Below are positions 766-18,962 of a DNA stretch of 64,000 bases, in pieces. How positions within the stretch are numbered: position 1 is the first letter of the stretch; each line of letters begins with the position of its first letter. The DNA is from Dehalobacter sp. DCA (GTDB lineage Bacteria > Bacillota > Desulfitobacteriia > Desulfitobacteriales > Syntrophobotulaceae). Location: NCBI RefSeq assembly GCF_000305775.1, contig NC_018866.1, positions 2,065,001-2,129,000 of the forward strand, in the 5' to 3' direction. The position numbers and the translations under genes are program-made. The notes below the pieces were generated by a model. The model saw only the letters and a list, made by a program, of their open reading frames with translations. It had not been told where the DNA came from and searched no databases.

Positions 766-1431
766 TTAGCGTATTAATAAACTCCAATACCACAAAATCA
801 TTTCATTGCCAAAAAGAATGCTTCCTATGATACCTATTACTAAAAATGGTCCATATGGAATCGCAGTCTTTAATTGTCCTTTGCCGCTGGCCAGAATAAT
901 CACCCCGAAGACTCCGCCGATGATTGACCCGACAAGCATTGCCCAAAGCGTTAGTTTCCAGCCCAGAAAAAAGCCTGCTGCGGCCATCAGCTTGATATCT
1001 CCGCCACCTATGCCGCCTCTCGATAATATATAGATCAGCAGCAAACCCAATCCAGCTCCAAAGAAGCCAATCAGCCTCTCCAGCCAGGAGACATCCCGAT
1101 TGAAGAAGGCAAACAGAATGCCCAGAACCAGAATCAAGAGGACAGTCCAGTTGGGGATCAACATAGTCTTAAAATCGACGAAAGCAATCAGCAAAAGGAT
1201 GGAACCAAGAATTATAAAACCCAGTGTCTCCACAGAAAAACCATACTTCCAGAATACAGCGCAGTACAGCAGCGCATTCAGGATTTCCACGACCGGTTTG
1301 GATGGGAAATTTCTGTGTTCCTCATCCATGTTTCTTCTAATTAATATTTTCAAAAATCTTCCGGCAGCAATCCCGACGATAAATAAACCCAAATAGGTCA
1401 GCCAAATATGTTCCATAAAAAACGTTTCCAT
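766..1431 (-). CDS. pilD: Prepilin peptidase, A24 family, minimal form
   Basis: A 221-residue polytopic membrane protein that should cleave the leader peptides of the pilins encoded nearby, after Gly and before Phe. The aspartate protease signatures are visible: VDFKTMLIPN (first catalytic Asp) and GGIGGGDIKLM (second). About seven hydrophobic segments are present. It is shorter than PilD/GspO (about 250-290 residues). The cytoplasmic loop after the first membrane segment is only ~15 residues long and lacks the four-cysteine zinc motif and the segment tied to N-methyltransferase activity. The start ATG at 1431 follows an AAAGGAG site by 7 bases. It is divergent from pilB and shares the 154-bp gap with it. 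Confidence 0.9.
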   Translation of the reverse strand: METFFMEHIWLTYLGLFIVGIAAGRFLKILIRRNMDEEHRNFPSKPVVEILNALLYCAVFWKYGFSVETLGFIILGSILLLIAFVDFKTMLIPNWTVLLILVLGILFAFFNRDVSWLERLIGFFGAGLGLLLIYILSRGGIGGGDIKLMAAAGFFLGWKLTLWAMLVGSIIGGVFGVIILASGKGQLKTAIPYGPFLVIGIIGSILFGNEMILWYWSLLIR

Positions 1432-1585: not shown

Positions 1586-3265
1586 ATGCCGGAAACGATG
1601 CGGAAATTGGGACAGCTTTTAGTTGAATCAGAGGTGATTACTACTAAGCAGCTCGAAGATGCCTTGGAGATGCAGTCCAAAACCTCTAAAAAACTGGGCG
1701 AGATCCTGATTGAAATGAAATCCATTACAGAAAAACAGCTACTCAGAGTACTGGAATTTCAATATCATATTCCATACTATGATCTAGGTGAAACTCCGAT
1801 TGATCCTCTTGCTACGGGACTGATTACAGAAGGAATGGTCAGAAAGCATTCCTTGATACCGATCAAGAAGGAAAATAATGTGCTGATCGTTGCCATGGTC
1901 GACCCGCTGGACTTTTATGCGATCGATGATGTCAAACGGGCCACCCGTCTTGACATTAAGCCTGCCATGGCTACCGCGTCGGATATCATGAATGCGATCG
2001 AGCGCTATTATGGCAAGGAAAGCGCTGAAAAAGCGATTGAAGAACTGAAACAAACGTATGACCTTGTTGACTTTTCGGGAATTGACGATCAGTTTGGCGA
2101 TGAGGTGACGAATGCCCCTGTCGTAAGACTGGTTAATTCCGTGATTCAGCACGCGATCAAGACCAATGCCAGTGACATTCATATTGAACCGTCTGACAAT
2201 GAAATGCGGATCCGCTACCGGATAGACGGAGAACTTCAGGAAGCCATGAAAACATCTAAAGCGGCTCACCAGGCCATCGTCACCAGAATTAAGATCATGG
2301 GGCAAATGGATATTGCTGAGAAGCGCCTGCCCCAGGATGGCAGAATCGAAGTCAGCATTGACGGCAATAACGTCGACCTCAGGCTTTCCATACTTCCGAC
2401 TGTCCACGGAGAAAAGATTGTTATCCGCGTGCTTGGAATGAGAAACAGTACATATACCAAATCTGAGCTGGGCTTTACTGCTGAAAATCTTGAGCTGTTT
2501 GACCGGATTATTAAAAGTCCGAATGGGATCATCCTTGTTTCCGGCCCCACCGGTTCCGGAAAAACGACGACACTTTACGCAGTCATGCGGGAATTGAATA
2601 AACCAACTGCCAATATCATCACCGTAGAAGACCCTGTTGAATACCGGATGGATGGGATTAATCAGGTTCAAGTCAATACCAAAGCCGGCCTGACTTTTGC
2701 CTCAGGACTGCGGTCGATTTTGCGTCAGGACCCCGACATTATCATGATTGGGGAGATCCGTGATTCGGAGACAGCCCAGATTGCGATCCGTTCAGCCATC
2801 ACCGGCCACCTGGTCTTAAGCACTATCCACACCAACGACGCAGCTTCCTCGATCCTCCGGCTTGTCGATATGGGAATTGAATCTTATCTTGTTTCTTCCG
2901 CTGTTGTCGGCCTGATGGCACAGAGACTTGTCCGTAAAATATGCACGAAATGCAAAACTTCATACCGACCGGAACATGCGGAAATGATGCTGCTGAAACT
3001 GCGAGAACCCCAGCCGCTATACAAAGGGACTGGATGTCCTGCCTGTAATTACACAGGCTATCACGGCAGAACTGCCATCCATGAAATCATTCCGATCAAC
3101 AAGGATATCCGCGAGATGGTTAACCGGGGTGTAACTCCTGATCAAATAAGACATATTGCCGGCCGCTTTGGCTATATTTCGCTTCGTGATACCTGTACCC
3201 GTCTGGTTCTGGACGGAACCACCACCACGGAAGAATTATTAAAAGTAACCTATAGTATTGAATAG
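1586..3265 (+). CDS. pilB: Type IV pilus assembly ATPase PilB
   Basis: Hexameric cytoplasmic ATPase (559 residues) that powers pilus extension. The N-terminal ~60 residues contain two RKLGQLLVESEVIT...QLEDALEMQ-type units, the pattern of MshEN domains, which in other PilB/MshE proteins bind cyclic di-GMP. The motor domain has Walker A GPTGSGKTTT (about residues 319-328), an Asp box, a Walker B region DPDIIMIGEIRD and a His box. A zinc tetracysteine motif is formed by CTKC (about 452) and CPAC (about 484). The start ATG at 1586 follows a GGAG site (TTGGAG then 8 bases). It is followed after 35 bp by pilT, so both are probably cotranscribed. Confidence 0.96.
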   Translation: MPETMRKLGQLLVESEVITTKQLEDALEMQSKTSKKLGEILIEMKSITEKQLLRVLEFQYHIPYYDLGETPIDPLATGLITEGMVRKHSLIPIKKENNVLIVAMVDPLDFYAIDDVKRATRLDIKPAMATASDIMNAIERYYGKESAEKAIEELKQTYDLVDFSGIDDQFGDEVTNAPVVRLVNSVIQHAIKTNASDIHIEPSDNEMRIRYRIDGELQEAMKTSKAAHQAIVTRIKIMGQMDIAEKRLPQDGRIEVSIDGNNVDLRLSILPTVHGEKIVIRVLGMRNSTYTKSELGFTAENLELFDRIIKSPNGIILVSGPTGSGKTTTLYAVMRELNKPTANIITVEDPVEYRMDGINQVQVNTKAGLTFASGLRSILRQDPDIIMIGEIRDSETAQIAIRSAITGHLVLSTIHTNDAASSILRLVDMGIESYLVSSAVVGLMAQRLVRKICTKCKTSYRPEHAEMMLLKLREPQPLYKGTGCPACNYTGYHGRTAIHEIIPINKDIREMVNRGVTPDQIRHIAGRFGYISLRDTCTRLVLDGTTTTEELLKVTYSIE

Positions 3266-3300
3266 ACTGATCAAATCTATTTATGTTGAGGAGTGTTTGT

Positions 3301-4377
3301 ATGAATCTAAATATCAGGGACTTACTTTTAATGTCATTGGAACTGAAAGCTTCTGACCTCCACATCACAACCGGCCTTCCCCCAATGTTCAGAATCAATG
3401 GTATCCTGACTCCGATGGCAAACGCCAAGTATTTGTCTCCGTTGGACACCAAAGAGCTTGTCGACGAACTGATGGATGAACCCGTGAAAAACCGTTTGCA
3501 GCAAAAGGGAGAAGTTGACTTTTCCTATACGATCCCTGGTATCAGCCGTTTCAGGGTTAACGTCTACAGCCAGCGGAAAAGCATGGCAGCCGCGATCAGG
3601 GTCATTGTTCCTGATATTCCAAGCATAAACGAACTGGGACTTCCCGATATCCTGAAAGACCTCGCGATGAAACCCAGAGGTCTGATCCTGGTCACAGGTC
3701 CGACCGGTTCCGGTAAATCCACTACCCTTGCTGCCATGGTGCGCCATATGAATACGCACCGCAACAGTCACGTCATTACCATCGAAGACCCGATCGAATA
3801 TTTGCATGCCCATAATCAATGTATGATAAACCAGCGTGAGATAGGTGACGATACCCATACCTTTGCAGATGCTTTACGGTCTGCACTGCGTGAAGACCCC
3901 GATGTTATCCTGGTCGGTGAAATGCGCGACCTTGAGACGATCAACACGGCCCTGATGGCTTCAGAAACAGGCCACCTGGTCTTGTCCACACTCCATACTT
4001 CATCCGCAGCGACTACCATTGACCGGATCATCGATGTCTTTCCGCCGAATCAGCTGCAGCAAATTAAAGTTCAGCTGGCATCTGTTCTTCAGGGCATTAT
4101 CTGCCAGCAGCTGCTGCCTACTCTTGAGGGTACCGGACGTGTTGCAGCGATGGAAGCTCTCATCGTCAATGACGCTGTCCGGAATATGATCCGCGAAGGT
4201 AAAACCCACCAGATTGATACGGTCATCCAGACTGGCATCAAAGTCGGTATGGCCCCGATGGATTATTCTCTGGCGAATCTGGTTAAGCGGAAGATGGTAA
4301 CCCTCGAGGAAGCAAAATCGAGATGTGTGAATCCAGAACTGTTCTCGAAGTATCTTGATCAGCCGTATATTTTCTAA
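3301..4377 (+). CDS. pilT: Twitching motility retraction ATPase PilT
   Basis: Cytoplasmic ATPase (358 residues) that depolymerises the pilus and gives retraction and twitching. Walker A is VTGPTGSGKSTT (about residues 131-142) and Walker B is EDPDVILVGEMRD. The PilT-specific retraction motif is clear near residue 300 (AVRNMIREGK, compare AIRNLIREGK in the family), which separates it from PilB. I place the start at ATG 3301 because GAGGAG lies 7 bases upstream. An in-frame ATG at 3283 overlaps that ribosome site and has none of its own. It is followed by a strong hairpin terminator shared with the convergent unit downstream. Confidence 0.95.
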   Translation: MNLNIRDLLLMSLELKASDLHITTGLPPMFRINGILTPMANAKYLSPLDTKELVDELMDEPVKNRLQQKGEVDFSYTIPGISRFRVNVYSQRKSMAAAIRVIVPDIPSINELGLPDILKDLAMKPRGLILVTGPTGSGKSTTLAAMVRHMNTHRNSHVITIEDPIEYLHAHNQCMINQREIGDDTHTFADALRSALREDPDVILVGEMRDLETINTALMASETGHLVLSTLHTSSAATTIDRIIDVFPPNQLQQIKVQLASVLQGIICQQLLPTLEGTGRVAAMEALIVNDAVRNMIREGKTHQIDTVIQTGIKVGMAPMDYSLANLVKRKMVTLEEAKSRCVNPELFSKYLDQPYIF

Positions 4378-4559: not shown

Positions 4560-5771
4560 TTAATAGATCTTTTCCCGAAAGCGGGATATCGCATGCTTGA
4601 ACTTGACCGGCCAGATCTCCTCGCCCCTGCGGAGCAGTTCCCCCATTAGCTCCGCAACATATAGCTTACCAACTCCGGTAAGATTTAAAACCAGAATATC
4701 TGAACTTTTTTCTTCAATGATAACATCTCTGGCCTCAATATCGGTCTTCCTGTGGATCAAGCGAAGTTTTTCCCCTTCTTGCAGGGTTTCAAGCTCCATT
4801 TCCAGTGTTGATTTTTCCATCAACCAGGAATATTCGGCCATCTCTTTCAGATTTAAGATGCCGAATTGTCCAAAATCAAGAACCATGATCTGATCGTCAT
4901 GGTAGAGCCCGATATGCTTCAGTTCCTGATAATACCTGCTGTAAATCAGATATTTCCTGCTATCTGAGCCAAAGAAATCTTCCATCATGTCCAGGAAAAC
5001 CCACTGACGGAATTTTGCAATCAGATCCACATCGATACTCGCCCATAGGGATGACTTATCATCTTCCGGTAGGCCAAACCTTTGGAGCAGCTTCCGGTTG
5101 ATAGACCTGGAAGGAGCCTGCGTCCAAGGCTGATCAAGATAATTAATGACCACAGGCACTAAATCCGGTTCAGAATCCGCATCAATCATTTTTAAAAAAT
5201 AATCCTCATTTAAAAGAAAGCTTTCCTCATTTCCAAACTGAAAAAACCTGCGGATCACCCCTTTGCTGAAAGGACTGTCTGCAATCAACCTGTATCTCGA
5301 GATCATCAGGGAAACCATTTCCTCATTTTGATGAATCAGATTGACCGCAACTTCAATAATATCCTTTTCCTGATCAAACAACTCATGCAGGAGCTCATCA
5401 CTGCAATCCCTAGAATTTGCTGCAAGCCTTGAAGCCTTTCTCATTTCCGGAAGCTCACAAAAATACTGAGTGAGCGCCCAGATCAAGCCAATCAGCCTTG
5501 GACTCATCCGCAGTTTAAGGATCTGAAGAATCACGGACTTCATTTCCGGCCTGTCATCCTGTATCAAAGCGACAAGACAATCCTCAAGTTCCCTTTTGCC
5601 CAGGGAAAAAGCATAGCTCTCCAGAGAGCCCTGGAATCTGCTGAAATCGTCTTTAAATGTTCCAGGCTCTGGATTCCGGCTGACCCGCTCCGCAAACTCG
5701 TGCGGCAGTAAAACGGCCTCACGCAGAACATCCATTGTGCTGTTTAATCGTTCCGGGGTAAACCTCTGCAT
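4560..5771 (-). CDS. Unknown 403-residue protein, partner of the ExbB/ZorA-like gene
   Basis: I do not recognise a family. The first ~280 residues are predominantly helical, with Leu/Ile-spaced segments (DCLVALIQDD, VILQILKLRMS, VAVNLIHQNEEM, VPVVINYLDQPW) that look like HEAT-type repeats of about 35-40 residues. The last ~110 residues look mixed alpha/beta (QIMVLDFGQFGILNL, DILVLNLTGVGKLYV). There is no signal peptide or membrane segment, so it should be cytoplasmic. It starts 13 bp after the stop of the 917-residue membrane protein and is almost certainly translated from the same mRNA. The pairing suggests that it binds the coiled-coil tail or uses the membrane complex. Whether it serves the pilus or a separate process is not shown. 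Confidence 0.8.
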   Translation of the reverse strand: MQRFTPERLNSTMDVLREAVLLPHEFAERVSRNPEPGTFKDDFSRFQGSLESYAFSLGKRELEDCLVALIQDDRPEMKSVILQILKLRMSPRLIGLIWALTQYFCELPEMRKASRLAANSRDCSDELLHELFDQEKDIIEVAVNLIHQNEEMVSLMISRYRLIADSPFSKGVIRRFFQFGNEESFLLNEDYFLKMIDADSEPDLVPVVINYLDQPWTQAPSRSINRKLLQRFGLPEDDKSSLWASIDVDLIAKFRQWVFLDMMEDFFGSDSRKYLIYSRYYQELKHIGLYHDDQIMVLDFGQFGILNLKEMAEYSWLMEKSTLEMELETLQEGEKLRLIHRKTDIEARDVIIEEKSSDILVLNLTGVGKLYVAELMGELLRRGEEIWPVKFKHAISRFREKIY

Positions 5772-5784
5772 ACTTTACTCCTGT

Positions 5785-8538
5785 TTACTGCTTCGTTCCT
5801 GTTTTTAAAGCGCTCTGCAGCGCTTCTGCAGAATCTCTGATACTTTCAAGGATGGTGGCCAGCCTCAGAGTTACTTCCCCGAGACCCTTGTCAAAATCTG
5901 CAAAGGTTCCGTTGATCCCGTCCTGAATCCGCTCATTAAATTCCTGTACGGACAGCCTGAGATTTGCAGACAGATCGGCCACGTCAATATTAATTTCTTT
6001 GGCGTAGAGACCGATACTGCGGGAATTCTCGTCCATATTTTCAACCAGTTCCTTAATCCCTTTATCAAAGAATTCCAGTGCCCCGGAAGAGTTGTTCGTA
6101 ATTTTGCTGATGATCTCGGCCGTTTCTGATGAGAAGGAGGCTAGTGTCTTCTGAATGCTGAAATCGAGCTCGTCCAGGGTCTTCGAAGACTGCTCCGCGA
6201 TCCGGGTGAAGTAGTCGTCATACAGATCTTTCATTTCTGCAGTCCTGACTGCCAGCTTCTCCACGATCTCTATGCTTTCACCCATAGCAGCCCGCATACT
6301 TACTGCCAGATTTTCGCCCATGGAATCAATGGACTTATCCATCCTGCTAAGCAAATCGCCATAAAGATCAGACGCCTGACGGCCTGCCTTTTCCAGCATA
6401 TTTTTGCCTTCGAGCGATACCTCCGCGGCCATATCAGCTAGTTTTTCCGTTGTCTGCAGGTTGGAGGCCATGATTCTGTTACTGTAATCCGACAAACGTT
6501 CATCGGTTATCGCTATCAGCCGACTGAGCCTTTCATCCAGCTCATAACCATATTTTTCGCGGGACTCTTCCATTTTGGTGCTGACTTCTGTGTATCCTTC
6601 AACCGCCCTGACAAGATCTCCGGAGATTTGCAGATTGGAGCTTTCCAGCTTGGTTGCCACATCACTGAACAGCTGGGAAGCGCGTTCGTTGATCTGTTCC
6701 AATAAATTGCTGCTTGATAGCGAGAAACCCTCCGCGACTACCGTCAATTTTTGAGCTGTCAGCGTATGGGATCCCATGATATTCTCCGTGTAGCCCGCCA
6801 ACCTTTCATCGGTTGCCTTGATTAATTGACTAAGCCTGTTATCCAGTTCTTCACTGTATTTTTCACGGGACGCTTCCATTCTGTTGCTGACCTCCGCATA
6901 TTCCGCAACAGCCCGAGCTAGGTATCCGGAAATCTGCATATTGGAATTATCCAGCTTGCCGGTAATCTCCGCATACATCTGGGAAGCCTTCTCATTGATT
7001 TGCTCCAGCAGCTGATTGCTGGATTCAGAGATCTCAGTTACGGAAGAGGTCAGTTTATCCATTGCCAGTGCACCGGAGTTCAAGATCCGGCTACTGAGAT
7101 CCGAGAGGCGCAGGTCAAGACTCTCGATCATTTTCCCGATCCGCTCATCCGTCTCCTCACCGTGCAGTTTTCTTGATTCCTCGATCCCTGCAAAAATCTC
7201 CGCGTATTTTTCGACTGCGCCGGTCAGTGTTTCGGAAATCCTGGTGATGGATTGATCCATATGCCCCTGCAGGGTACCCGTCAGCTCTGCAATCCCGTTC
7301 TGGACCGATTTCACTTGCTCCATATTCCCTTCGAGCAGCTGCAGCGACTGCAGCGCCATGGCATCGGCTTTATCCATACCTTGAACTGCATACGCCCTCA
7401 TCTCAGCAGCAACTGTTTCTGCCGCCCTGACGCTGTCCAGAGAGGCCCGCAATGCTTCTGAAACCTGTGTCTGGACTTTACCGGCTTCATTCAGTGCATC
7501 AAGAGACTGTACACAAAGTTTTTCCTGGGATTTTGCGTTTTGTTCGGTCGCTTCCTGGATCCTGCTCATACCTGATACAACGGTTTCCAGAGCCCCGGCA
7601 ATCACTGTGGTCTTTTCCGTAAACGTATTCAGCCTGTCGGCCGTAACCGCAGTGACTTTTTCGGTAAACGTCTGCGCGAGTTCCTTCATTCCGTTTTCCT
7701 GCCTGGTAATCAGCGCATCTGAAAGATCGCTCAACACGCCTGAAGTCTGCTTTAATACCGGCGTAATATTCTGTTCGATGGCTTCCCTGAACTTATCTCC
7801 AAGCATCGGCGCCATTGTCTCTGTCTCAAAGGAATCCAATCTATTTTCAAGCCGCTGAACCGCCTCCTGAAAAGCCAGGGTGTTTTGACGCTGGCTCTCG
7901 ACTAAGAGACTGATTTCAGTAGGTTCGGAGATCGGATTCAGCCATCCGGAAAGCTTGTATTGATATTCCCATAGCCCTTTCCTAGTTCTCTCTAGACTGG
8001 CTGCATCGGCCACTTTAAACAGAAAGACAATTACGGAGACCGCTGCGAGCTCCAAAAGCAGGATGCCAAGGCTCCTGATGATGCCTTCCGGTGTCACCGT
8101 CCCGTCAAAACCCAGAAAATACAAAGAGGGATATAGCAGCGACCCGGCAATACCCAGAATAAAAAGAGTCAAACCTGCGCGCTCCATCATCTGCCGCCCG
8201 CACGGGATATTGATCATATTGTTTTCATTAAAGTAATACGGAATGTCCGGACAGATCTCACCTTTAAGCCTATCTGCATATTCCCGGTTATATTCTTTCC
8301 AAAGCGTTTCTAAAACCGGGTTTCCTGTTTTAGAGGCCATATCCAGCAGCGTGTCCATTCTGCCCTTTTGATCAGAAGGCAGCTTCTTATCCGCATTACT
8401 TATCTGTTTAAGGCCCTTGGCCAGTCCATCAAGACATACTATATCGTATTTTATGTAAAATATTAGTGCTATGAACAGCACCAGCAGCAATGTTCCGCTT
8501 AAGACCATTATATCTGTCTGCGTCATCATGGCAATCAT
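5785..8538 (-). CDS. ExbB/ZorA-like membrane protein with very long coiled-coil tail
   Basis: 917 residues. Membrane segments lie at about 9-29, 121-143 and 154-175, with a ~90-residue loop between the first and second. This is the topology of TolQ/ExbB and of ZorA of the Zorya defence system. The stretch YYFNENNMINIPC just before the second segment sits where ZorA-like proteins have a similar YF...C element. The GTFxGL signature usual in that segment is not preserved (it reads ILGIAGSLLYP). Residues 180-917 are a continuous alpha-helical coiled coil rich in Glu, Ser, Leu and Ala, with three 102-residue repeats at about 454-759. No MotB/ExbD/ZorB partner is adjacent. The ATG at 8538 has an AGGGGG site 9 bases upstream. 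It could be annotated as chemoreceptor-like because of the tail, but no receptor signature is seen. Confidence 0.85.
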   Translation of the reverse strand: MIAMMTQTDIMVLSGTLLLVLFIALIFYIKYDIVCLDGLAKGLKQISNADKKLPSDQKGRMDTLLDMASKTGNPVLETLWKEYNREYADRLKGEICPDIPYYFNENNMINIPCGRQMMERAGLTLFILGIAGSLLYPSLYFLGFDGTVTPEGIIRSLGILLLELAAVSVIVFLFKVADAASLERTRKGLWEYQYKLSGWLNPISEPTEISLLVESQRQNTLAFQEAVQRLENRLDSFETETMAPMLGDKFREAIEQNITPVLKQTSGVLSDLSDALITRQENGMKELAQTFTEKVTAVTADRLNTFTEKTTVIAGALETVVSGMSRIQEATEQNAKSQEKLCVQSLDALNEAGKVQTQVSEALRASLDSVRAAETVAAEMRAYAVQGMDKADAMALQSLQLLEGNMEQVKSVQNGIAELTGTLQGHMDQSITRISETLTGAVEKYAEIFAGIEESRKLHGEETDERIGKMIESLDLRLSDLSSRILNSGALAMDKLTSSVTEISESSNQLLEQINEKASQMYAEITGKLDNSNMQISGYLARAVAEYAEVSNRMEASREKYSEELDNRLSQLIKATDERLAGYTENIMGSHTLTAQKLTVVAEGFSLSSSNLLEQINERASQLFSDVATKLESSNLQISGDLVRAVEGYTEVSTKMEESREKYGYELDERLSRLIAITDERLSDYSNRIMASNLQTTEKLADMAAEVSLEGKNMLEKAGRQASDLYGDLLSRMDKSIDSMGENLAVSMRAAMGESIEIVEKLAVRTAEMKDLYDDYFTRIAEQSSKTLDELDFSIQKTLASFSSETAEIISKITNNSSGALEFFDKGIKELVENMDENSRSIGLYAKEINIDVADLSANLRLSVQEFNERIQDGINGTFADFDKGLGEVTLRLATILESIRDSAEALQSALKTGTKQ
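6262..7179 (-). repeat. Three 306-bp coding repeats in the coiled-coil tail
   Basis: Each unit encodes 102 residues beginning with ESRK/ASREKY/ESREKY, followed by a DERLSxLI...DERLxxY core and LLEQINExASQ. The first two units align without gaps over their whole length, and the third diverges in its second half. The constant length points to duplication of a fixed structural segment rather than simple coiled-coil drift. Confidence 0.8.
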
Positions 8539-8698: not shown

Positions 8699-8764
8699 TC
8701 AAACGTCTAGACCTTGAGGACGACCTCAAAAAATTACGATAATAAAAAATTGGAGGAAAAAGAA

Positions 8765-9163
8765 ATGTTAAAGAAAATGTGTCTTCAAATGAAAAAGAAA
8801 AACAAAGGCTTTACACTAATTGAGCTGATTGTGGTTATTGCGATTCTGGGTATTTTGGCTGCTGTGTTGATTCCGCAGTTTACTGGATTCCAGGATAAAG
8901 CCCACAGCACACAGGTAATGGTTGAAGCTAAACAGATCGCCACTGCCGCAGACAGTCTTTATGTAGAGCTGGGAGCAGCACCAACAGCAGCTCAAATTGT
9001 TGCAGTAGCCGGACCTGATATTGCCGCAGCTGATATCACCGTTGGTGCTGTAGGTAGCGGACATGTTGGATTTGTCTATGTCACAACAGTAACTGGTTCA
9101 ACTAAAACATTTACCGCAACTAGAAATGCAGCCAATAACTATTCAATTGTCATTACCTATTAG
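8765..9163 (+). CDS. pilA: Type IV pilin (major pilin candidate 1)
   Basis: 132-residue prepilin. The leader MLKKMCLQMKKKNKG ends in Gly15. The mature protein starts FTLIELIVVIAILGILAAV, with the conserved Glu at +5 and a hydrophobic helix. The mature body is ~117 residues and small, with an Ala/Thr/Val-rich C-terminal half like Gram-positive type IVa pilins. The ATG at 8765 is chosen because GGAGG lies 8 bases upstream. An in-frame TTG at 8714 has no ribosome site. Its own promoter region and terminator suggest a strongly expressed single gene. It shares the STQV-EAK-IATAAD segment with the next pilin, so the two are paralogues. Confidence 0.92.
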   Translation: MLKKMCLQMKKKNKGFTLIELIVVIAILGILAAVLIPQFTGFQDKAHSTQVMVEAKQIATAADSLYVELGAAPTAAQIVAVAGPDIAAADITVGAVGSGHVGFVYVTTVTGSTKTFTATRNAANNYSIVITY

Positions 9164-9429: not shown

Positions 9430-9852
9430 ATGCACCAAAATCTCGCTAATCAACTACTTATAACCCCACAAAAAAAACTAAACCGCGGCTTCACACTTGT
9501 TGAACTGATTTTAGCTATTGCAATTATTGGTATCCTTGCGGCAGCTGTGATTCCAAGCTTTTCTGGTTATCAGGAAAAAGCAAGAAGCACTCAAGTTTTG
9601 CTAGAGGCAAAGAAAATTGCCACTGCAGCTGATGGTCTTTTAGGGGGAGGGAAAACTTATGGTATCGTTGCTTCTACAACCGTGTTTACGGATGCTGATA
9701 TTTTAACCTTAGCTGGCTCAGATATTACAGGGACTATTTCATCCGGGTCTGTTTCAGGTGAGCATTTTATCTTTACCTATGACAAAACTATAGGTACAGC
9801 AGCTTATACTGCTTCCCGGGCTGCTACGGGGAAATTCAATATCACTTGGTAA
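9430..9852 (+). CDS. Type IV pilin (candidate 2)
   Basis: 140-residue prepilin paralogous to the upstream pilin. The leader is unusually long (20 residues, ending LNRG) and cleavage would expose FTLVELILAIAIIGILAAAV with Glu at +5. Residues after the helix (STQVLLEAKKIATAADG) match the first pilin, and the rest is divergent. The ATG at 9430 follows AAGGGG by 7 bases. The 197 bp between the pilin-1 terminator and this gene hold no repeat of the TGTAAA array, so control may differ. It may be a minor or alternative pilin. Confidence 0.9.
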   Translation: MHQNLANQLLITPQKKLNRGFTLVELILAIAIIGILAAAVIPSFSGYQEKARSTQVLLEAKKIATAADGLLGGGKTYGIVASTTVFTDADILTLAGSDITGTISSGSVSGEHFIFTYDKTIGTAAYTASRAATGKFNITW

Positions 9853-10082: not shown

Positions 10083-10792
10083 TCTCTATTAATATTCTCC
10101 CTTAATATCTTTATACTTCGATCCTTCACCCTACTTACCTGTCACTGAGAGATTCCCAGCTGCGAAGCGACCTGCTGCTGTGTCATATCTTTAATGAAAA
10201 TCATTTGAACCACTTTTTGCTGGATATTCGTTAGCTTTTTTAATGCATGGTAAAGGGCAAGTTTATCCTCAATCGGAAGGTGAAATGTCTCATAGGCTGT
10301 ACTATGAATCCTTGAAGCATCAATCTCATCAAAACTAACAAAGCCCGCTCTCATAACTTCGATAACACTTTCTTCCTTAATTTTTAGCTCTTTGGCAATA
10401 TAATCTGTACCCGGTACATCGCCGTTTTCTTTCATATATTTTTGAACTTCATGTTCTACTTTGGCCTGAAGCTCAGCAATGCAACCCGGACGGTAGAAAG
10501 ATGCTTCTTTACGCGCCAGATGACGAACCTCCCCCATGATACAGTGAGAAGCAAACGTCATAAATCTAGTCTCCCTATCGGGGTCAAAATTACGCAAAGC
10601 TTTCATTAAACCCAGACTGCCAGCCTGAAAGAGATCGTCCTCGCAGCAGCCTCCGCCGTAGAGCCTTGCAAAATATTTGATCAGTCCCTTGCCTGCTTCA
10701 AGCACCTTTTCTGCTGATTCTTTATCTTTATGCTGATAGTAGTAGGCTGCTGCTTCATTGATCGTTTGATTCACTTGTCCGGTTTCTTCCAT
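10079..10792 (-). pseudogene. Sigma-70 family factor interrupted by an in-frame TGA
   Basis: A group-3-like sigma factor. Region 2 is visible (DDLFQAGSLGLMKALRNFDP, then RFMTFASHCIMGEVRH), a region 3 segment follows (GDVPGTDYIAKELKIKEES), and region 4 reads NIQQKVVQMIFIKDMTQQQVASQLGISQ. There a TGA at 10142-10144 stops translation. The same frame then continues QVSRVKDRSIKILREN to a TAG at 10079. This is exactly the recognition helix and end expected for region 4.2, where the residue after GISQ is usually Arg, so a CGA-to-TGA change explains it. The start ATG at 10792 has GGAGA 8 bases upstream. It is the last gene of the pil operon, so it once may have controlled pilus genes. The truncated product (to 10142) keeps core-binding regions but lacks the -35-contacting helix. 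Confidence 0.8.
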
Positions 10793-10860
10793 ACTACACT
10801 CTCCATAGGATATGATCATCCAGACTATTTACTTTACTAAAATCAACTGAGTAGGCTGCC

Positions 10861-11394
10861 CTACAAAGAAGACGGCAAGGTATACGAGAAACCGATACAG
10901 GAGCCTGAGGCGGTCGGAAACGTGCTTTTATGATAATTCAGCAGAATGACTTCTGTGGTGACATCATAATTGGCATCATCTTTATCCCTAATTGTAAAAA
11001 TGACCGAATTTGATTTGCCTGTGTTTGCAAAAGAAATCATAAATTTTTGGGTGCTATCAACTCCGGGCGCAGTGGCACTCGTTCCATTGTTATTGTAGTG
11101 GAAGAAACCTGAAGCATCCAGGTAAATATCGTTTCTGCCGGTGGCAGCGGTAGGCGTACTCGTCAGGAAGGTAAATGAATTGGCATAGCGTATCTGCTTG
11201 CTGATAAAATCGGCAGCCATGCGCACCTGGTATTGCCTATCGGCATTTACTTGTCCCTTGTGGAGAGCGGTTGTTCCGAATGTGATCATCGGGTAAATGA
11301 TCGCCACGACCAAAGCCATGATTGCTGTGACAGCCATCACTTCAAGCAAGGTAAAGCCCTTGCTCTTCCTTTGTGTTTTTATGCTGAATTTCAT
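10861..11394 (-). CDS. Minor pilin, PilW/GspJ-like
   Basis: 177 residues with the prepilin signature KSKGFTLLEVMAVTAIMALVVAI near the N-terminus (Gly14, Glu at +5). The C-terminal region has FISKQIRYANSFTF, typical of PilW/GspJ-type minor pilins that prime pilus assembly. It lies third from last in the minus-strand pil operon, 29 bp after the PilV-like gene. Family assignment within minor pilins is by position and pattern only. Confidence 0.85.
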   Translation of the reverse strand: MKFSIKTQRKSKGFTLLEVMAVTAIMALVVAIIYPMITFGTTALHKGQVNADRQYQVRMAADFISKQIRYANSFTFLTSTPTAATGRNDIYLDASGFFHYNNNGTSATAPGVDSTQKFMISFANTGKSNSVIFTIRDKDDANYDVTTEVILLNYHKSTFPTASGSCIGFSYTLPSSL

Positions 11395-11423
11395 GGGCTC
11401 CCCTCCTAGTCGTCTAAATTCTT

Positions 11424-11750
11424 TTATTTTCCGGGCTTGAAGTAATCAATCGAAACTTCTTTTCCGTTCACAGTAGCACTCTCGGCAGGCATTACTGTAC
11501 CACTAGCCGAAATCGTCGTCGCATCGGGCATCGTGATTGTAATCGTGGAAGGCGCTGCATTTATCGTATTGAGCTCTACCTCCACCTGGGACTGGGCTGT
11601 GAATGACGCATCATTGCGGTCTCTGGCCTGGACGATGACCCGTATGCCCATTGTGAAAACAGTAAGAAGGGACACTCCCATCACACCGATGATCGCCAGA
11701 GCGACAATGATCTCAATCAGCGTAAATCCTTTGGCCTTTTTTCGAAGCAT
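11424..11750 (-). CDS. Minor pilin, PilV/GspI-like
   Basis: 108 residues. The short leader MLRKKAKG is followed by FTLIEIIVALAIIGVMGVSLL, with Glu at +5, and the small C-terminal body has the TAQSQVEVELNTINA segment common in GspI/PilV proteins. It probably forms the tip complex with the neighbouring minor pilins. The ATG at 11750 is preceded by an AGGAGG-like site. Confidence 0.85.
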   Translation of the reverse strand: MLRKKAKGFTLIEIIVALAIIGVMGVSLLTVFTMGIRVIVQARDRNDASFTAQSQVEVELNTINAAPSTITITMPDATTISASGTVMPAESATVNGKEVSIDYFKPGK

Positions 11751-11786
11751 TGCGGTATCCCTCCTTAATAAATTATTATATTGCCA

Positions 11787-12971
11787 TTATTTAAGCCAAG
11801 CATCCCTTTGATACGTTTCAGCACCAATGATATCGTTCTGGTCTACCGTTGTGTCATTTGTTAATGTTACATGGCTGTTAGAAGTATCATCATATGTTCC
11901 TATTACCATTTTCCCTAGAAAAGTACCATTACCACCACCTGTTATATTGAACGAGGCATTTGGAGCATAAATACTCAGATGCTGATATGAAAAATTACCG
12001 CTGTTATCTGCAATTTGGTTGGTTCCATTATAATATAGATATAATGTGTTGCCATCAGGGACGTTGACTTGTGACCCCAATGTAAAATTAGTAATTGTAT
12101 CCGATATCAATATGTGAAGCTCTCCGCCCCCACCTGCAGGCCATGTTATATTGGCCATGATATCACTCAAATCAGTAACCGCAGTCGCAAGTACATGGTT
12201 GCCTGGGTCACTTGGGGTCGCGGTGACAACATATGGTGTTGGTGGATTATGGCCATGTCTTGGTGTCCCTAGCTGTGAATTATTATTTTCAGTTGGAAAA
12301 AGGTCCGTCTTGGTATTAGGAAATATAATTTTTTCATTAAGTCTCTGCGGAGTTCCACACATAGGATCTACGGAGTTATTTAAATATGTCTGAGTAGCAT
12401 CCGGTCCCAAAATTACATTTCCATTAACCGGGTTCCTGCCAAAGGTAATAGAACCGGCATTTGTCCCAATATCACCATTGACGGTGATATTGTTACCTAA
12501 ACTCATACTGTCATTGGCAAAAATTGTTGTATCTAATACTGTCCTTAAAGCCTGCTTTAATGTTAAACTTACCTTGACCGGAAGTGTACCAGTGGCGGTC
12601 GTCCCTGTGGACTCTAACAGCAAATCACCTCTGTATGGTCCGCTGGGTATCCGGCTGACATTCACTTGGAATGAACTAATAGTAGCCCCGGTCCCGATCG
12701 TTCCGGTTCCAGGTAATGTCTCAATTTTAAAGATCAGATCATCGACTACTCCTGAAATTGTCGTATTATTGCTGCTTTGTTCTATGATGTATGAAGCCAT
12801 GGCATCGGCTCCGGAACGTGCGGCATAGTAGGCCCGTTTATTCTCAACCTGGTTCGCAACCATCTTGGTTTCCCCGTAAGCAATACTCAGGATCGCAGTC
12901 CCCAGCAAAGATAAAACGACCAGCAAAACCATCGTCAGCACTAATGCATAACCATCCGATTTTTTTTTCAC
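11787..12971 (-). CDS. PilX-like pilus tip/assembly protein
   Basis: 394 residues. The N-terminus KKKSDGYALVLTMVLLVVLSLLGTAIL followed by NKRAYYAARSGADAM is the PilX N-terminal pattern; it lacks the Glu at +5 of classical pilins. Residues ~130-394 are beta-rich, with Gly/Asn/Thr-rich stretches (NNITVNGDIGTNAGSITFG) that look like a right-handed beta-helix or DUF-type surface domain. It is probably an exported tip-associated subunit. It lies between pilO and the PilV-like gene. Confidence 0.8.
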   Translation of the reverse strand: MKKKSDGYALVLTMVLLVVLSLLGTAILSIAYGETKMVANQVENKRAYYAARSGADAMASYIIEQSSNNTTISGVVDDLIFKIETLPGTGTIGTGATISSFQVNVSRIPSGPYRGDLLLESTGTTATGTLPVKVSLTLKQALRTVLDTTIFANDSMSLGNNITVNGDIGTNAGSITFGRNPVNGNVILGPDATQTYLNNSVDPMCGTPQRLNEKIIFPNTKTDLFPTENNNSQLGTPRHGHNPPTPYVVTATPSDPGNHVLATAVTDLSDIMANITWPAGGGGELHILISDTITNFTLGSQVNVPDGNTLYLYYNGTNQIADNSGNFSYQHLSIYAPNASFNITGGGNGTFLGKMVIGTYDDTSNSHVTLTNDTTVDQNDIIGAETYQRDAWLK

Positions 12972-13018
12972 ATGACTCCCTCCTTGTATTCCTATTATTG
13001 AAAGAAATCATTGTTATC

Positions 13019-13852
13019 TTAATTGAAAGGATCCGACTTTCCGTAACTGCCTTTAATCGTCCAAGCGTTGAATGGATCCTCGCCGTTATCAACTTTTTCC
13101 ACCGCATAGAAAGATACAGTCAGTATGAATTTTAGTCCTTTTTCATCTTCCTTGGCTTCGACGGCTTCCAGCGCAATCGCCCGGTTTAGTTTTTCCAGGC
13201 TGGTGACGACTGTTCGGTACTGGGCGTAGCTTCCTGTAAACTCAATTGTTGTAGGTAACCGGAGCACCGCATCGGCAGGTAAAGTCTTCTCTTCACCGGT
13301 AGTGGCGGTACTCTGAGAAGTACCTGCAGCAGAAGATATCTCTTTTGCCGGCTGGTCACTATAAGCCTGGTTAATGGTATTCGCTTCTTGCTGCAAGGAA
13401 TAAGCCGGAAGCAGATAACGGTTGTCCTCCGGCATCACGACCCCATTAACTTCGGGGTCAGAAAACTCGAGATTCGTCAACGTCGCGCCGCTTCCCTTCA
13501 CGATTTTCTCAACGAGCAGCACGTACTGCTCCTTATACGGGTAGACGCCGGGGAAGAAGGATTCAGAAGCCTCCATTCCGTTTGCTAATTGCGTTTCATA
13601 GGCCTTGACGATGCTTTGTTCATTTTCCAGGTCGCTTTTGGCTGCGGCTACTTTTTGTTTCATGACTTCTTTATCGGCTGTTAAACTTTCAAGGCTGGCA
13701 CTCATCGGAAGGTAAAGGACATAGTAGCTGATTGCGATGATAATCACAACCCCGAGAACCATCAGCAGCTTTTTATCCCGCTCGGTGATTTTGGCATCGA
13801 GTGATAATCTCCCAATCTTTTTCCCCTGCAAGTTTGGTTTCTGCAGCTTCAT
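13019..13852 (-). CDS. pilO: Pilus alignment-complex protein PilO
   Basis: 277 residues: a short cytoplasmic N-terminus, one membrane helix at about 28-50 (LLMVLGVVIIIAISYYVLYL), a coiled coil (about 52-92) and a periplasm-side ferredoxin-like domain. This matches PilO, longer than usual because of a Ser/Thr-rich insertion near residue 160-195. Its start ATG overlaps the pilN stop by one base (TAATG), so the pair is translationally coupled. Confidence 0.85.
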   Translation of the reverse strand: MKLQKPNLQGKKIGRLSLDAKITERDKKLLMVLGVVIIIAISYYVLYLPMSASLESLTADKEVMKQKVAAAKSDLENEQSIVKAYETQLANGMEASESFFPGVYPYKEQYVLLVEKIVKGSGATLTNLEFSDPEVNGVVMPEDNRYLLPAYSLQQEANTINQAYSDQPAKEISSAAGTSQSTATTGEEKTLPADAVLRLPTTIEFTGSYAQYRTVVTSLEKLNRAIALEAVEAKEDEKGLKFILTVSFYAVEKVDNGEDPFNAWTIKGSYGKSDPFN

Positions 13853-14418
13853 TATTTAGCCACCTCCTTCAATTCGCACAGAATGGAAAATTCATAGGCG
13901 GCTGTTTCTGTACCACTCTGAATAAACTGTACCTGCACCCTGGAAAAAAGTTCTGTTGCCTCCAGGTTATGGGCCAACTCGGCCACTGTCGCCGATGCCG
14001 GTACAGTGCCCTGCAAAATCACTTGATAGTCTTTGATTTCCAGAGATTTCAGGCTGACTGCTGCCGGAATCGTCTTTTGAATTGTATTCAGGAATTCACT
14101 GCTGACTTTAGTGGCCAGCGTAATTTTTTGTTTAGCCTGATTTACTTGCACCGTATAGGTGATTAAATTCTCGGTTGCTGCTTTCTTGGCCTGAATGTCT
14201 GTCAGCTTCGCTTTGTTTTCCGGAGCATTCAGAAAGGCCTCGCCTTTATTAATCGCGTAAGAACAATAGAGCATCCTTGCTCCCATAATGCCGTAGAACA
14301 GTACAACAACAAGAATTACGCCGAGAATGGCTCCGTAGGATCTTCTGATTTTTTTCTTCTGGGCCAGTTTCTGTTTTTCAAATGTTGAAAAAAAGTTAAA
14401 ATCATTCATTTTAGTCAC
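13852..14418 (-). CDS. pilN: Pilus alignment-complex protein PilN
   Basis: 188 residues: an N-terminal MNDFNFFS segment, which in the family binds PilM; one membrane helix at about 27-48; a short coiled coil; and a C-terminal alpha/beta domain with the YQVILQGTVPASATVAELAHNLE pattern of PilN. It lies 6 bp after pilM and overlaps pilO. The internal order pilM-pilN-pilO is that of type IV pilus loci generally. Confidence 0.87.
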   Translation of the reverse strand: MTKMNDFNFFSTFEKQKLAQKKKIRRSYGAILGVILVVVLFYGIMGARMLYCSYAINKGEAFLNAPENKAKLTDIQAKKAATENLITYTVQVNQAKQKITLATKVSSEFLNTIQKTIPAAVSLKSLEIKDYQVILQGTVPASATVAELAHNLEATELFSRVQVQFIQSGTETAAYEFSILCELKEVAK

Positions 14419-14424
14419 CTGCTC

Positions 14425-15630
14425 TCAAAGCCTGATCAGCGCAGCGGAGGCATTAACATAGTCTCCGGGTGCCTGTTCATGGTCAATATACTGAATGTTA
14501 CTGATCATCTGAAGCCGGTCAACTTTCAAACCGAGCCCCTGTGACAGGTACTCTGGTATTCCTGTAAGACTGGCTCCTCCACCGATCAGGTAGATTTGGC
14601 TCAAATCCTTAGAGCCGCTCCTGTTCGCAAAAAACTGCATAACCTTTCGGATTTCTTCGAGCAGTTCTCCGTAAAGCGGTTTCACAGCGGCTAGTGCTTC
14701 CTCTTTAGTAAAAACTTTTCCTTGTTCTATGGGCCGAATCCCTTCAACCGTGTTCTCAGCTGAATCGGAAACAGGTTCTTCCATATTTTCGGTTAGACCT
14801 TTCTTTTTAATCACAAATGTATGGCCTTTCTTTTTTACGGCAAGGGATCTGTTCTCGGTTCTCTCCGTTACGCCTGCTTCCGAAGCAATGCGCTCTTGTT
14901 TATCGGAAAGAAACTCCAGTTTCTTTTCTTCAGCCTTCTCTTCGGATAAGGCAAATAGGCCTGCAAGCAGGCGGTCCACCGCTTTTCCACCGAAGCTGAT
15001 TGAGCGGAAGAAATTCAGGCTGCCCTGAGAGATCAGATAGATCATCGTCCCGGAATATCCAATATCTAAAATGATATAGTTGTTCGACAAATCGTTGTTA
15101 ATCGCAGTCTGTTCGTTGAAAATTTTAGAAATAACATTCGCGTGAATGTCCAGGGCGACTGGTTTCAGCTTAAGGCTATCAAGAAGGTCGTAATACGCAT
15201 GCGCTATTTCCTTATTCATGACCGCTGCCCGTACCTTGACTTTTTTCATTCCGCCGGTCTCTGTCTCACCGATCTTGCGGTACTCGACCAGATCGGTATC
15301 CGTCATACCGAAAAATTGAATAATTTCATTCTTAATCATTGCTTCGAGTTCTTGCTCATTTCCTGAAGGAACCTCAAATTCACGAATAATCACGCTGTTG
15401 GAGTTAAACGTGATCAGGGCATCTTTAGTGGAAGTATTCAGAGAAGCAAGCACTTCCTGCATGGCTGAGGTCAGTACTTCTTTATTCGTAATCAAACCGT
15501 CAGAGAGTACGCCTTTCGGAAGCCCGATGCTGGCACTTCGCAGTATTCTGACAGTATTTCCTTCCGTCTGGCCGACAACAGCGTGAATATTTCTTGTTCC
15601 AAGATCAAAGGACAGATATGCAGCAGTCAA
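14425..15630 (-). CDS. pilM: Pilus assembly protein PilM (actin-like ATPase)
   Basis: 401 residues with the actin/FtsA-like fold: phosphate-1 motif SFDLGTRNIHAVVG at the N-terminus, phosphate-2 ILDIGYSGTMIY near residue 190, and adenosine motif IYLIGGGASLTGI near residue 355. A charged insertion (about residues 230-300, rich in Glu and Lys) makes it longer than standard PilM (about 350). It should sit on the inner membrane face and bind the PilN N-terminus. Translation starts at TTG 15630 after GAGGGGG. Confidence 0.9.
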   Translation of the reverse strand: MTAAYLSFDLGTRNIHAVVGQTEGNTVRILRSASIGLPKGVLSDGLITNKEVLTSAMQEVLASLNTSTKDALITFNSNSVIIREFEVPSGNEQELEAMIKNEIIQFFGMTDTDLVEYRKIGETETGGMKKVKVRAAVMNKEIAHAYYDLLDSLKLKPVALDIHANVISKIFNEQTAINNDLSNNYIILDIGYSGTMIYLISQGSLNFFRSISFGGKAVDRLLAGLFALSEEKAEEKKLEFLSDKQERIASEAGVTERTENRSLAVKKKGHTFVIKKKGLTENMEEPVSDSAENTVEGIRPIEQGKVFTKEEALAAVKPLYGELLEEIRKVMQFFANRSGSKDLSQIYLIGGGASLTGIPEYLSQGLGLKVDRLQMISNIQYIDHEQAPGDYVNASAALIRL

Positions 15631-15659
15631 GTATATTCCCCCTCTTATGTAAAATTTAC

Positions 15660-16868
15660 TTAAATATTCTGATAGGCGCCATACATCGCCGAAACAATCG
15701 ACAGAACAATAAAGCCGATCACGACCGCCATCACAACGATCAAGGCCGGTTCAAACAGCGCCAGCATACGCTGAATTGCCACATCAGCTTCCTCGTCATA
15801 ATAGGCAGACGTTCTTTCCAAAATACTCTCCAGTGAGCCGGATTCCTCGCCGATGCTGATCATGGAATAAATCATCGGCGGAAACACCCCGATCTTGCGG
15901 ATGGACTGCGAGATTGTCGCTCCTTTGCTCATATCCTCTTTGGCAGCTAACAGACCGTCACTGACTACTTTATTCCCAAGCACTTTCGCGGTGATTTCTA
16001 TACAGTTCAGCAAAGGAATCCCGCTGCTTAACAGCGTGGAAAGGGTACGGGCCATCCTGGCGGACATGATCTTGATGGAAGTCGACTTTACAACAGGGAT
16101 TTTCAGTTTCATTCCATCCCATTTCAGTCTTCCAGAATCGGTCTTAATGTATTGTCTTGTTGCAAAAACAACCGCTGCAATCACAATAATTAAAATGTAC
16201 CAATAAGACCTCATAAAGTTACTGATTCCCATAAGGATTCTGGTTGTCAACGGCAGGGTTGTGCCGGTAGATTCAAACATGGCGGTAAACGTCGGCAGCA
16301 CAAAAGTCATCAATATAATAACCACAATGATCATTACGCCGGTTAAGATGGCCGGGTATGTCATGGAAGAAATCATTTTTGTCCGAAGCTTTCGTTCCTT
16401 TTCAAAATGATCAGTCATCTTATTCAGTACGAGATCGAGCTTACCGCTAGCCTCACCGGACTCAATCATATTAATCAGGATTTCAGGAAATGCCTGCCCC
16501 TGCTTGCGCATAGCTTCGGAAAGCATGTCCCCTTTTTGTACTGCTTCATAGACTCTGAGGACTACAGCTTTAAGCTTTTTGCTTTCTGTCTGCTGGTAAA
16601 TGACATCGAGGGCTTTAATGACCGTTACACCGGCTGTTAACAGCGCATGAAACTGATTGCAGAATACGACAAGATCTTTGACTTTCAACTTGATCGGCTT
16701 GTCCTTACTGATCGCCTTTTGGACATTTTGCCGTTTTTCATTGACTTCGATACAGAAAAGCTGTTGCTCTTTGAGCTGCCGGTAAAAGTTCTGAATACTG
16801 TCGGCTTCCAAAACGCCTGTCGTTCTCTGGCCGGAAAAGTCTTTGGCGACATACGAATATAAGGGCAT
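15660..16868 (-). CDS. pilC: Type IV pilus inner-membrane platform protein PilC
   Basis: 402 residues with two copies of the T2SSF/GspF domain (LVVFCNQFHALLTAGV... and MARTLSTLLSSGIPLLNCIE...), each followed by a membrane helix (about 165-190 and 370-395) and one central helix near 215. PilC couples the PilB and PilT motors to pilin insertion. It is the first gene of the minus-strand pil operon, with an AAAGGAAG site before ATG 16868 and a structured, box-containing leader upstream. Confidence 0.95.
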   Translation of the reverse strand: MPLYSYVAKDFSGQRTTGVLEADSIQNFYRQLKEQQLFCIEVNEKRQNVQKAISKDKPIKLKVKDLVVFCNQFHALLTAGVTVIKALDVIYQQTESKKLKAVVLRVYEAVQKGDMLSEAMRKQGQAFPEILINMIESGEASGKLDLVLNKMTDHFEKERKLRTKMISSMTYPAILTGVMIIVVIILMTFVLPTFTAMFESTGTTLPLTTRILMGISNFMRSYWYILIIVIAAVVFATRQYIKTDSGRLKWDGMKLKIPVVKSTSIKIMSARMARTLSTLLSSGIPLLNCIEITAKVLGNKVVSDGLLAAKEDMSKGATISQSIRKIGVFPPMIYSMISIGEESGSLESILERTSAYYDEEADVAIQRMLALFEPALIVVMAVVIGFIVLSIVSAMYGAYQNI

Positions 16869-17358: not shown

Positions 17359-18962
17359 CTATCCAGTGATCAACGCCATTTTTCTCATATTATGAGCGAT
17401 GCAATGTAATCCCCACTCAATTTTAACCTTTTCTAGCCCTTTTAACAGGAATCTTCGCATACCGTGATTCCCTTTAATGTCTCCAAAGACGCTTTCAACC
17501 TCGACCGGCCTCAAGCTCCTCATGCGCAAACCTTCTTCTGAACACAAATTCCTGCGGGCCTGTTCTTTATAGGCATTCAGTTTGCGATTGACATATATTC
17601 TTCTGTTAGCGTATGGATCGGATGACTTCACGCACTGGTTCCGATGAGGACACCGGAACAATTCAGGCATTCATAGATTCGGATCAAACTCCTATAGCCA
17701 TTGTCACTTTTTTGGTGCCGCTCGTATAAGAAAATGAGTGTTCTCCCATAACCGCAGATATATTCATCATTTTCATGGTCATAGGTGAAGTTCTGTGGTT
17801 TCGTTATGTCTTCTTTCCATTTCTTACTGGCTTCTTTGTGGAAGGTATTATATTTGACATAAGACACAAGCTTTTTCTCCTGCAGATAGTCGTAATTTTC
17901 TTCGCTGCCATAGCCGGCATCGGCAATAATATTCTTTGGTAATTCCCCATGCAGGAGCGTTTTTAATTCTTCCAGGTGATCCTTCATACAGCTGGTATCG
18001 CCCGGTCTCTGATGAACACTGTAACCGACCACAAACTGGTTCTCCGTCCCGATCTGGACATTGTAACCTGGCTTTAACTGACCGTTTTTCATATGGTCTT
18101 CTTTCATTCGCATAAAGGTGGCATCGTGATCTGTCTTGGAGTAACTGTTTCTTTCTTCCAGGATCAGTTCTTGCTGTTCATATTTCTGCATTCTTGGCAG
18201 ATAATCTTTCGTAAGGGTGTTTCTTGTTTTCTTTAACTTTTTGGTTTCAGCATCTACTGTCTCTTCTTCCGATTTCTTAGCCAGTCTCTCGTCAATTTTC
18301 CTTACGGCTTCTTCAATAGCCTCTGAGTCAATGGGCTTGCCATTGCCTAGCTCTTCTAAATCACTGTCGCCGTATTCCGCATTTTCTTCTTCATTGATCT
18401 GATCGATTTCTTTAAATAATTCCCGGCATTTCTCCCTTAACGCTTCTTTATAGCGCTTCGTGGATTTGCCCCATACCCAACTGTATTTATTGGCATTGGC
18501 CTCAATTTTTGTCCCGTCTAAAAAATAATTTTCCAGCTTGATGTATTTTTCTTTGACTAAGAGTTCAATAACTTCAGCAAATACTTCTAGAATAACCTCT
18601 TTCATCCGTTCACTCCGGAAGCGGTTAACTGACATGAAATCCGGCTGATTGCCGCCGCACAGCCACATATACATAATATTTTCACGGGCCGCTTTTGCTA
18701 TCCGGCGGCATGAAAAAACCCTGTCCGTATACGCATAAACCAATAACTTGGTCATCATGACAGGGTGAAAGCTGGAACGGCCGCCTCCAGGATATTTGGC
18801 AAACAAGGGTTCGAGATTCATGCGATCGATAGCACGATTCACAACTCGGACGACATGGTTTTGAGGAATCAGGCTGTCGATGCTTAACGGCAGTGTTTGT
18901 TGTTCCTGCACATAAGGTTTAAATACTTTCTTGGTATGTACTTTCTGCCCTTTCTTAGACAT
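17359..18962 (-). pseudogene. IS1182-family transposase, frameshifted
   Basis: A DDE transposase split into two frames: 18962-17628 (N-terminal 444 residues) and 17670-17359 (C-terminal part). DGTKIEAN and IIADAGYGSEENY carry the two Asp residues, and the Glu lies in VEVESVFGDIKGN of the second frame. Thus no single frame holds the whole triad. Near 17652 the sequence reads TCCGGTGTCCTCAT. One added T (GGTTGT) would restore the expected CSGCPHRNQC zinc-like motif, so a one-base deletion is the simplest cause. The N-terminal part starts at ATG 18962 after GGAGG. Terminal inverted repeats and target duplication could not be resolved. Confidence 0.85.

Follow-up and report, generated by a model that had tools for sequence, protein, structure and literature searches.

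Conserved ZorA-like and ZorC-like proteins without motor partner or nuclease, encoded as a pair in type IV pilus loci of Bacillota

In the genome of Dehalobacter sp. DCA, a stretch of 64,000 nucleotides was analysed (contig NC_018866.1, positions 2,065,001 to 2,129,000; hereafter the window). Within a complete type IV pilus locus of this window lie two neighbouring open reading frames (ORFs), ORF1 and ORF2. ORF1 is a distant relative of ZorA, and ORF2 is a distant relative of ZorC, both components of the type I Zorya phage-defence system. Together they make up a conserved module, undescribed as far as we searched, of two Zorya-type proteins without motor partner or nuclease; the open-licence literature that was searched held no description of such a pair or of such a pilus component. 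We consider it on balance probable that this ZorA-type rod and ZorC-type adaptor form a non-motor accessory module of one type IV pilus clade, and not a phage-defence motor.

Both genes are present on the minus strand with a gap of 13 bp, between the plus-strand pilB-pilT genes and the pilin genes (Table 1). The initial annotation, which had been made from the window alone, was therefore right in describing a two-gene unit inside a type IV pilus locus. The two proteins are 90-95% conserved in two congeneric genomes. When the window genome was compared with these two, the ratio of nonsynonymous to synonymous substitution rates (dN/dS) was 0.15 for ORF1 and 0.15-0.17 for ORF2, with 0.05 for pilT. 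Values of about 0.15 indicate that both genes are maintained by purifying selection. Given this selection, the conservation within the genus, and the retention of the pair in five further lineages, the two genes are not chance ORFs. No family in Pfam or NCBIfam scored above cut-off for either protein.

Hydropathy analysis of ORF1 revealed three membrane segments, at residues ~10-28, 117-143 and 156-174. They are followed by a helical tail of ~690 residues, which lacks proline after residue 260 and has a hydrophobic periodicity of 3.63. Calculated from the proline positions at 0.15 nm per residue, a straight tail would measure ~98 nm here and 68-120 nm in relatives. The tail extends over ~490 to 830 residues between lineages (for example window 5788-7850; locus L014 6754-9933). 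Look-alike segments were noticed by eye in the mid-tail of ORF1 of the window and of L014; BLAST self-comparison at E 1e-6 detected none. We then searched with a profile of the N-terminal region, built from six pil-type ORF1 proteins (those encoded beside pilus genes) with no ZorA included. It matched four solved E. coli ZorA chains at E-values of 1e-5 to 7e-5, and the next match reached only E 0.17. Alignment of the pil-type ORF1 profile with ZorA of three true Zorya operons by hhalign gave E 1.2e-10, the best of 25 column shuffles giving 0.06 and the reversed profile 0.27. With an AlphaFold model of the N-terminal part, Foldseek returned three matches at E < 0.001, all of them ZorA, followed by ExbB, TolQ and PomA. 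In addition, a pair of prolines 16 residues apart stands just past the membrane domain in five of the six pil-type proteins (244/260 in ORF1), and prolines of the same spacing occur in two of four ZorA, from operons L026 (244/260) and L027 (235/251). Matches of ORF1 to apolipoprotein, NCBIfam and PADLOC ZorA models fell mostly within the coiled coil and were not taken as evidence. Hydropathy, profile and fold matches agree on the three-helix ZorA-type membrane domain and long tail that had been predicted, and the profile search placed the N-terminal region with ZorA, not with an unrelated family.

A similar relationship was found for ORF2. The ORF2 family aligned with ZorC by hhalign at E 6.6e-16 over 317 columns; shuffled profiles reached 0.11 at best and the reversed profile 0.08, and no match came from cross controls between the two families. 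An eight-member ORF2 profile found ZorC of Zorya operon L040 at E 7e-21 and that of L026 at 2e-17. A five-member profile, searched against 398 evenly drawn genomes of the phylum, recovered two further pil-linked pairs and, at weaker scores, the genes of L026-L028 that are ZorC of ZorA-ZorB-ZorC-ZorD operons. PADLOC confirmed ZorB and ZorD of L026 and ZorC of L026-L028, and the Pfam family EH_Signature (PF15611) confirmed all three ZorC. ORF2 of L008 also matches PADLOC ZorC1 at E 2e-6. The Bacillota Zorya operons used for comparison lie at L040 6173-12450, L027 5412-12152, L028 899-7877 and L026 5409-11954, and their ZorC products are only 391-399 aa long.

The AlphaFold model of ORF2 (predicted local distance difference test, pLDDT, 75) fitted best to the solved ZorC 8r68, at Z 10.7 over 294 residues with a root-mean-square deviation of 6.2. 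This score is below the level of ~13 under which caution is advised for repeat proteins; it is nevertheless clearly separated from the other rows (the next at 6.8), and the match covers most of the model. Plain Foldseek with the same model returned weak HEAT and PUF matches only, and a second aligner ranked ZorC first. Against PDB sequences, the ORF2 profile without ZorC members had no real match, and with ZorC members it reached 8r68 at E 0.066. The initial annotation had the size of ORF2 right, at 403 residues; the description of it as an unknown HEAT-like protein gives way to that of a ZorC relative, by profile and by fold. The pair therefore represents two of the four components of type I Zorya. 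Like ZorC, ORF2 is encoded just downstream of the tail protein, the Zorya operons having ZorB in between. Unlike ZorC, which keeps the EH signature, pil-type ORF2 has D or N in place of its E and has lost the histidine region; its C-terminal block carries an invariant ARD-x-IIE instead. The pil-type proteins are acidic (isoelectric point, pI, 5.05-5.62, versus 7.05-9.14 for four ZorC) and are not accompanied by ZorD.

The remaining Zorya parts were looked for beside the pair. No ZorB adjoins it in any pil-type locus, and the two MotB_plug proteins of the genome are encoded away from it (640 kb and 1587 kb), each with a MotA-like gene immediately ahead of it. No ZorD, nuclease or helicase gene was found beside the pair in pil-type loci, although the ORF2 profile does pick up ZorA-B-C-D operons at other loci. 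The absence of an adjacent ZorB/MotB-like gene, nuclease or helicase had been noted initially, as had an erosion of the GTFxGL motif, and both observations were confirmed (LGIAGSLLY in ORF1 versus LGILGTFLG). Thr147 and Ser184 of E. coli ZorA are the residues of the serine/threonine ring. In the alignment to E. coli ZorA, the six pil-type lineages have S, A, A, F, L and I at the first position and L, L, L, F, F and F at the second, compared with T and S, respectively, in five of five true ZorA. The glycines at ZorA 150 and 154 are mostly lost as well. In Zorya, the critical aspartate of ZorB packs on the serine/threonine ring of ZorA, and defence needs ion flow (PMC11890865). Because both the Thr/Ser ion path and ZorB are gone, ORF1 most likely does not conduct ions, nor would it rotate, and its sequence argues against a 5:2 ion-conducting complex. 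The weaker fold matches suggest that the membrane domain shares the superfamily fold of the MotA, ExbB and TolQ motors; in contrast to these, the pil type has a long tail and no MotB, ExbD or TolR partner or conserved ion-path residues.

The distribution of constraint along ORF1 has changed as well. Between distant lineages of the pil type, mean identity was 38.5% in the last 150 residues and 26.3% in the membrane region (residues 111-205), with 25.7% for shuffled pil-type tails. The corresponding values in true ZorA were 22.4% for the tail tip and 36.9% for the membrane region. The constraint is thus inverted, being highest at the tail tip in pil-type ORF1 and in the membrane region in true ZorA. 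A tip that is held while the membrane part drifts is what loss of the motor, with the tail kept as the working part, would predict. Taken together, ORF1 resembles type I ZorA (E. coli 8qyd, 8qyh, 8qyk and 8qyy; Shewanella 8vvn) in its membrane domain, in the Pro-x15-Pro spacing of most members, and in its very long helical cytoplasmic tail. It differs in lacking ZorB, in the altered ion-path positions (one lineage having S at 147), in a tail tip more conserved than the membrane region, and in its place within pil loci. The same tail features could also belong to a structural scaffold, in which the rod positions the pilus machine or sets a distance, ORF2 forms a cap or anchor at the distal end of the rod, and no signal is passed. 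A rod that contains no proline over 450-800 residues, is conserved at its ends and varies in length fits such a role, as does the conservation of the tail tip. However, the length of ORF1 differs between lineages (717 to 1059 aa), and this speaks against a fixed ruler; we regard the scaffold as rather unlikely.

The intact pair was found in six Bacillota lineages, each time beside pilB/pilT. These are the genus of the window (three genomes), Peptococcaceae UBA2264 (L008/L014), Desulfosporosinus UBA5188 (L009/L015, with pilT alone visible on a 4.3 kb contig), Clostridiales UBA8921 (L016), and the lineages of L024 and L025. In L025 the genes run pilD-pilin-ORF1-ORF2-pilB-pilT-pilC-pilM-pilN-pilO, which places the pair between the pilin gene and pilB. 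A contig scan with ORF2 alone returned nothing, and one with the five-member alignment returned three named loci. Like the Bacillota type IV pilus machinery, in or beside whose pilB/T/C/M/N/O/D locus it lies, the pair descends with its PilT. When 27 PilT proteins were placed in a tree, those from pair-bearing loci and two orphaned PilTs next to them formed one group with support of 92/96 (98/95 without L016). The PilTs of the other sampled relatives fell outside this group, including a further PilT encoded by the Desulfosporosinus genome. The ORF1 and ORF2 trees were consistent with the PilT order, joining L024 with L025 and the window with L014 and L009/L015 and setting L016 apart, and in both the pil-type and Zorya-type proteins split with 100/99-100 support. 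The trees contain few sequences, have long branches and do not allow rooting, so that we make no claim as to whether Zorya or the pilus module came first.

The pair is also lost together with the pilus. In genome G003 (L010), an 11.8 kb deletion, whose junction joins window positions 4958 and 16736, took ORF1 and the N-terminal part of ORF2, together with the pilins, the sigma factor, PilX, PilO, PilN and PilM and most of PilC. What remains is pilD, pilB, pilT and the end of ORF2, and the genome now has no PilC match at all. G069 carries an orphan pilT (L048 6533-7621) near Suf-like genes, with no pilB or pilC beside it, and its sole PilC is 27% identical; its sister G068 has the full locus with the pair. 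In G006, a 60-residue trace of ORF2 lies beside a pilus locus of a different PilT clade. In all three cases, the pair was thus lost or decayed where the corresponding pilus genes had been lost or replaced as well. The initial annotation had left the choice between a defence remnant and a mechanosensor linked to the pilus. Position beside pil genes in all six lineages, co-descent and co-loss speak for the link to the pilus. A decaying type I Zorya operon that came to lie near pil genes by chance would account for the missing ZorB and ZorD and for the decayed copies in G003 and G006, but it is extremely improbable: both genes are under purifying selection (dN/dS ~0.15), the pair is intact in six lineages with congruent trees, and decayed copies are confined to genomes in which the matching pilus genes are missing or have been replaced.

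A further possibility is a phage defence tuned to the pilus, in which the pair senses phage via the pilus and ORF2 or another effector blocks infection without ZorB or ZorD. Both proteins belong to families of defence-system parts, and the distribution of the pair is patchy, which speaks for such a system. Nevertheless, there is no nuclease or helicase partner, ORF2 lacks the EH signature and, unlike the neutral or basic ZorC, is acidic, and the ion path that Zorya needs is lost (PMC11890865). Moreover, the pair always sits in pil loci and is lost with them, and searches of plasmid, phage and viral-contig collections with pil-type ORF2 found nothing. We therefore judge this explanation quite improbable.

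Several points nevertheless weigh against an accessory module of the pilus. The six lineages are all that were found, and class- and order-level searches around two distant hosts yielded no further pair members. Of the 82 genomes examined in the class, 69 have PilT and 5 the intact pair, so that most pilus-bearing relatives do without it. The pair is therefore not essential to pili in general, and the module would be tied to one pilus lineage. The confidence of the ORF1 model is modest (pLDDT 64), and a ZorB-like partner without a MotB plug may exist.

Table 1. The pair and the surrounding pilus genes (positions in the window)
Feature	Position	Strand	Remarks
pilD	766..1431	-	prepilin peptidase
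pilB	1586..3265	+	extension ATPase
pilT	3283..4377	+	retraction ATPase; pair-bearing PilTs form one clade
ORF2, 403 aa	4560..5771	-	ZorC-like helical-repeat protein without EH signature; acidic, pI 5.05
ORF1, 917 aa	5785..8538	-	ZorA-like membrane domain (three transmembrane segments) and long cytoplasmic coiled-coil tail with conserved C-terminal tip
ORF1, last 151 residues	5788..6240	-	conserved tail tip; 34-65% identity across lineages
ORF1, residues 1-206	7920..8538	-	ZorA-like membrane domain; equivalents of Thr147/Ser184 are S, L
Major-pilin-like gene	8714..9163	+	divergent from ORF1
Second pilin-like gene	9430..9852	+	
Sigma-70-like factor	10142..10819	-	in-frame stop in region 4.2 in the window genome
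Minor pilins, PilX-like, PilO, PilN, PilM, PilC	10861..16868	-	

Other features of the locus were recorded as well. The sigma-70-like factor also occurs in pair-bearing pilus loci of other genomes, where it is full length (L012 4553-5290, L013 14832-15572, L014 19284-20027, L024 3280-3984). An ORF of 444 aa on the minus strand (17628-18962), transposase-like by its start sequence only, separates pilC from a cluster of 14 tRNA genes.

The accessory-module reading has as its computed basis the ZorA and ZorC homology, the absence of ZorB and ZorD, the lost ion-path residues, the inverted conservation, and the linkage, co-descent and co-loss with the pilus. From there we infer a pentameric ORF1, a docking of ORF2, a loss of conduction and a regulatory role. 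ORF1 would be held in the membrane by its ZorA-like three-helix domain, probably as a pentamer, and project into the cytoplasm a stiff helical rod of ~70-120 nm by residue count. The conserved tip of the tail is the probable docking site of ORF2. ORF2 itself would most likely serve the pilus motor (PilB/PilT), or the placement of that motor, as an adaptor or regulator, and not be a DNA-binding effector. The job of the pair would accordingly be one of regulating, positioning or sensing. More tentatively, and as a speculation that may well prove wrong, the motorless Zorya-type rod could monitor the condition of the pilus machine at the membrane, such as retraction load or phage on the pilus, and signal through its ~100 nm length to a ZorC-type switch controlling the pilus motor.

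If this were true, it would represent a signalling principle undescribed for pili, and would be evidence that defence and surface machines swap parts. The pair bears as well on how the ZorA tail signals to ZorC and ZorD in Zorya itself: with tail and ZorC-like partner kept in the absence of ZorB, ion path and nuclease, it offers a natural minimal system for asking whether ZorC docks at the tail tip. The pair also shows that components have passed between a defence machine and a pilus machine, whichever way the transfer went.

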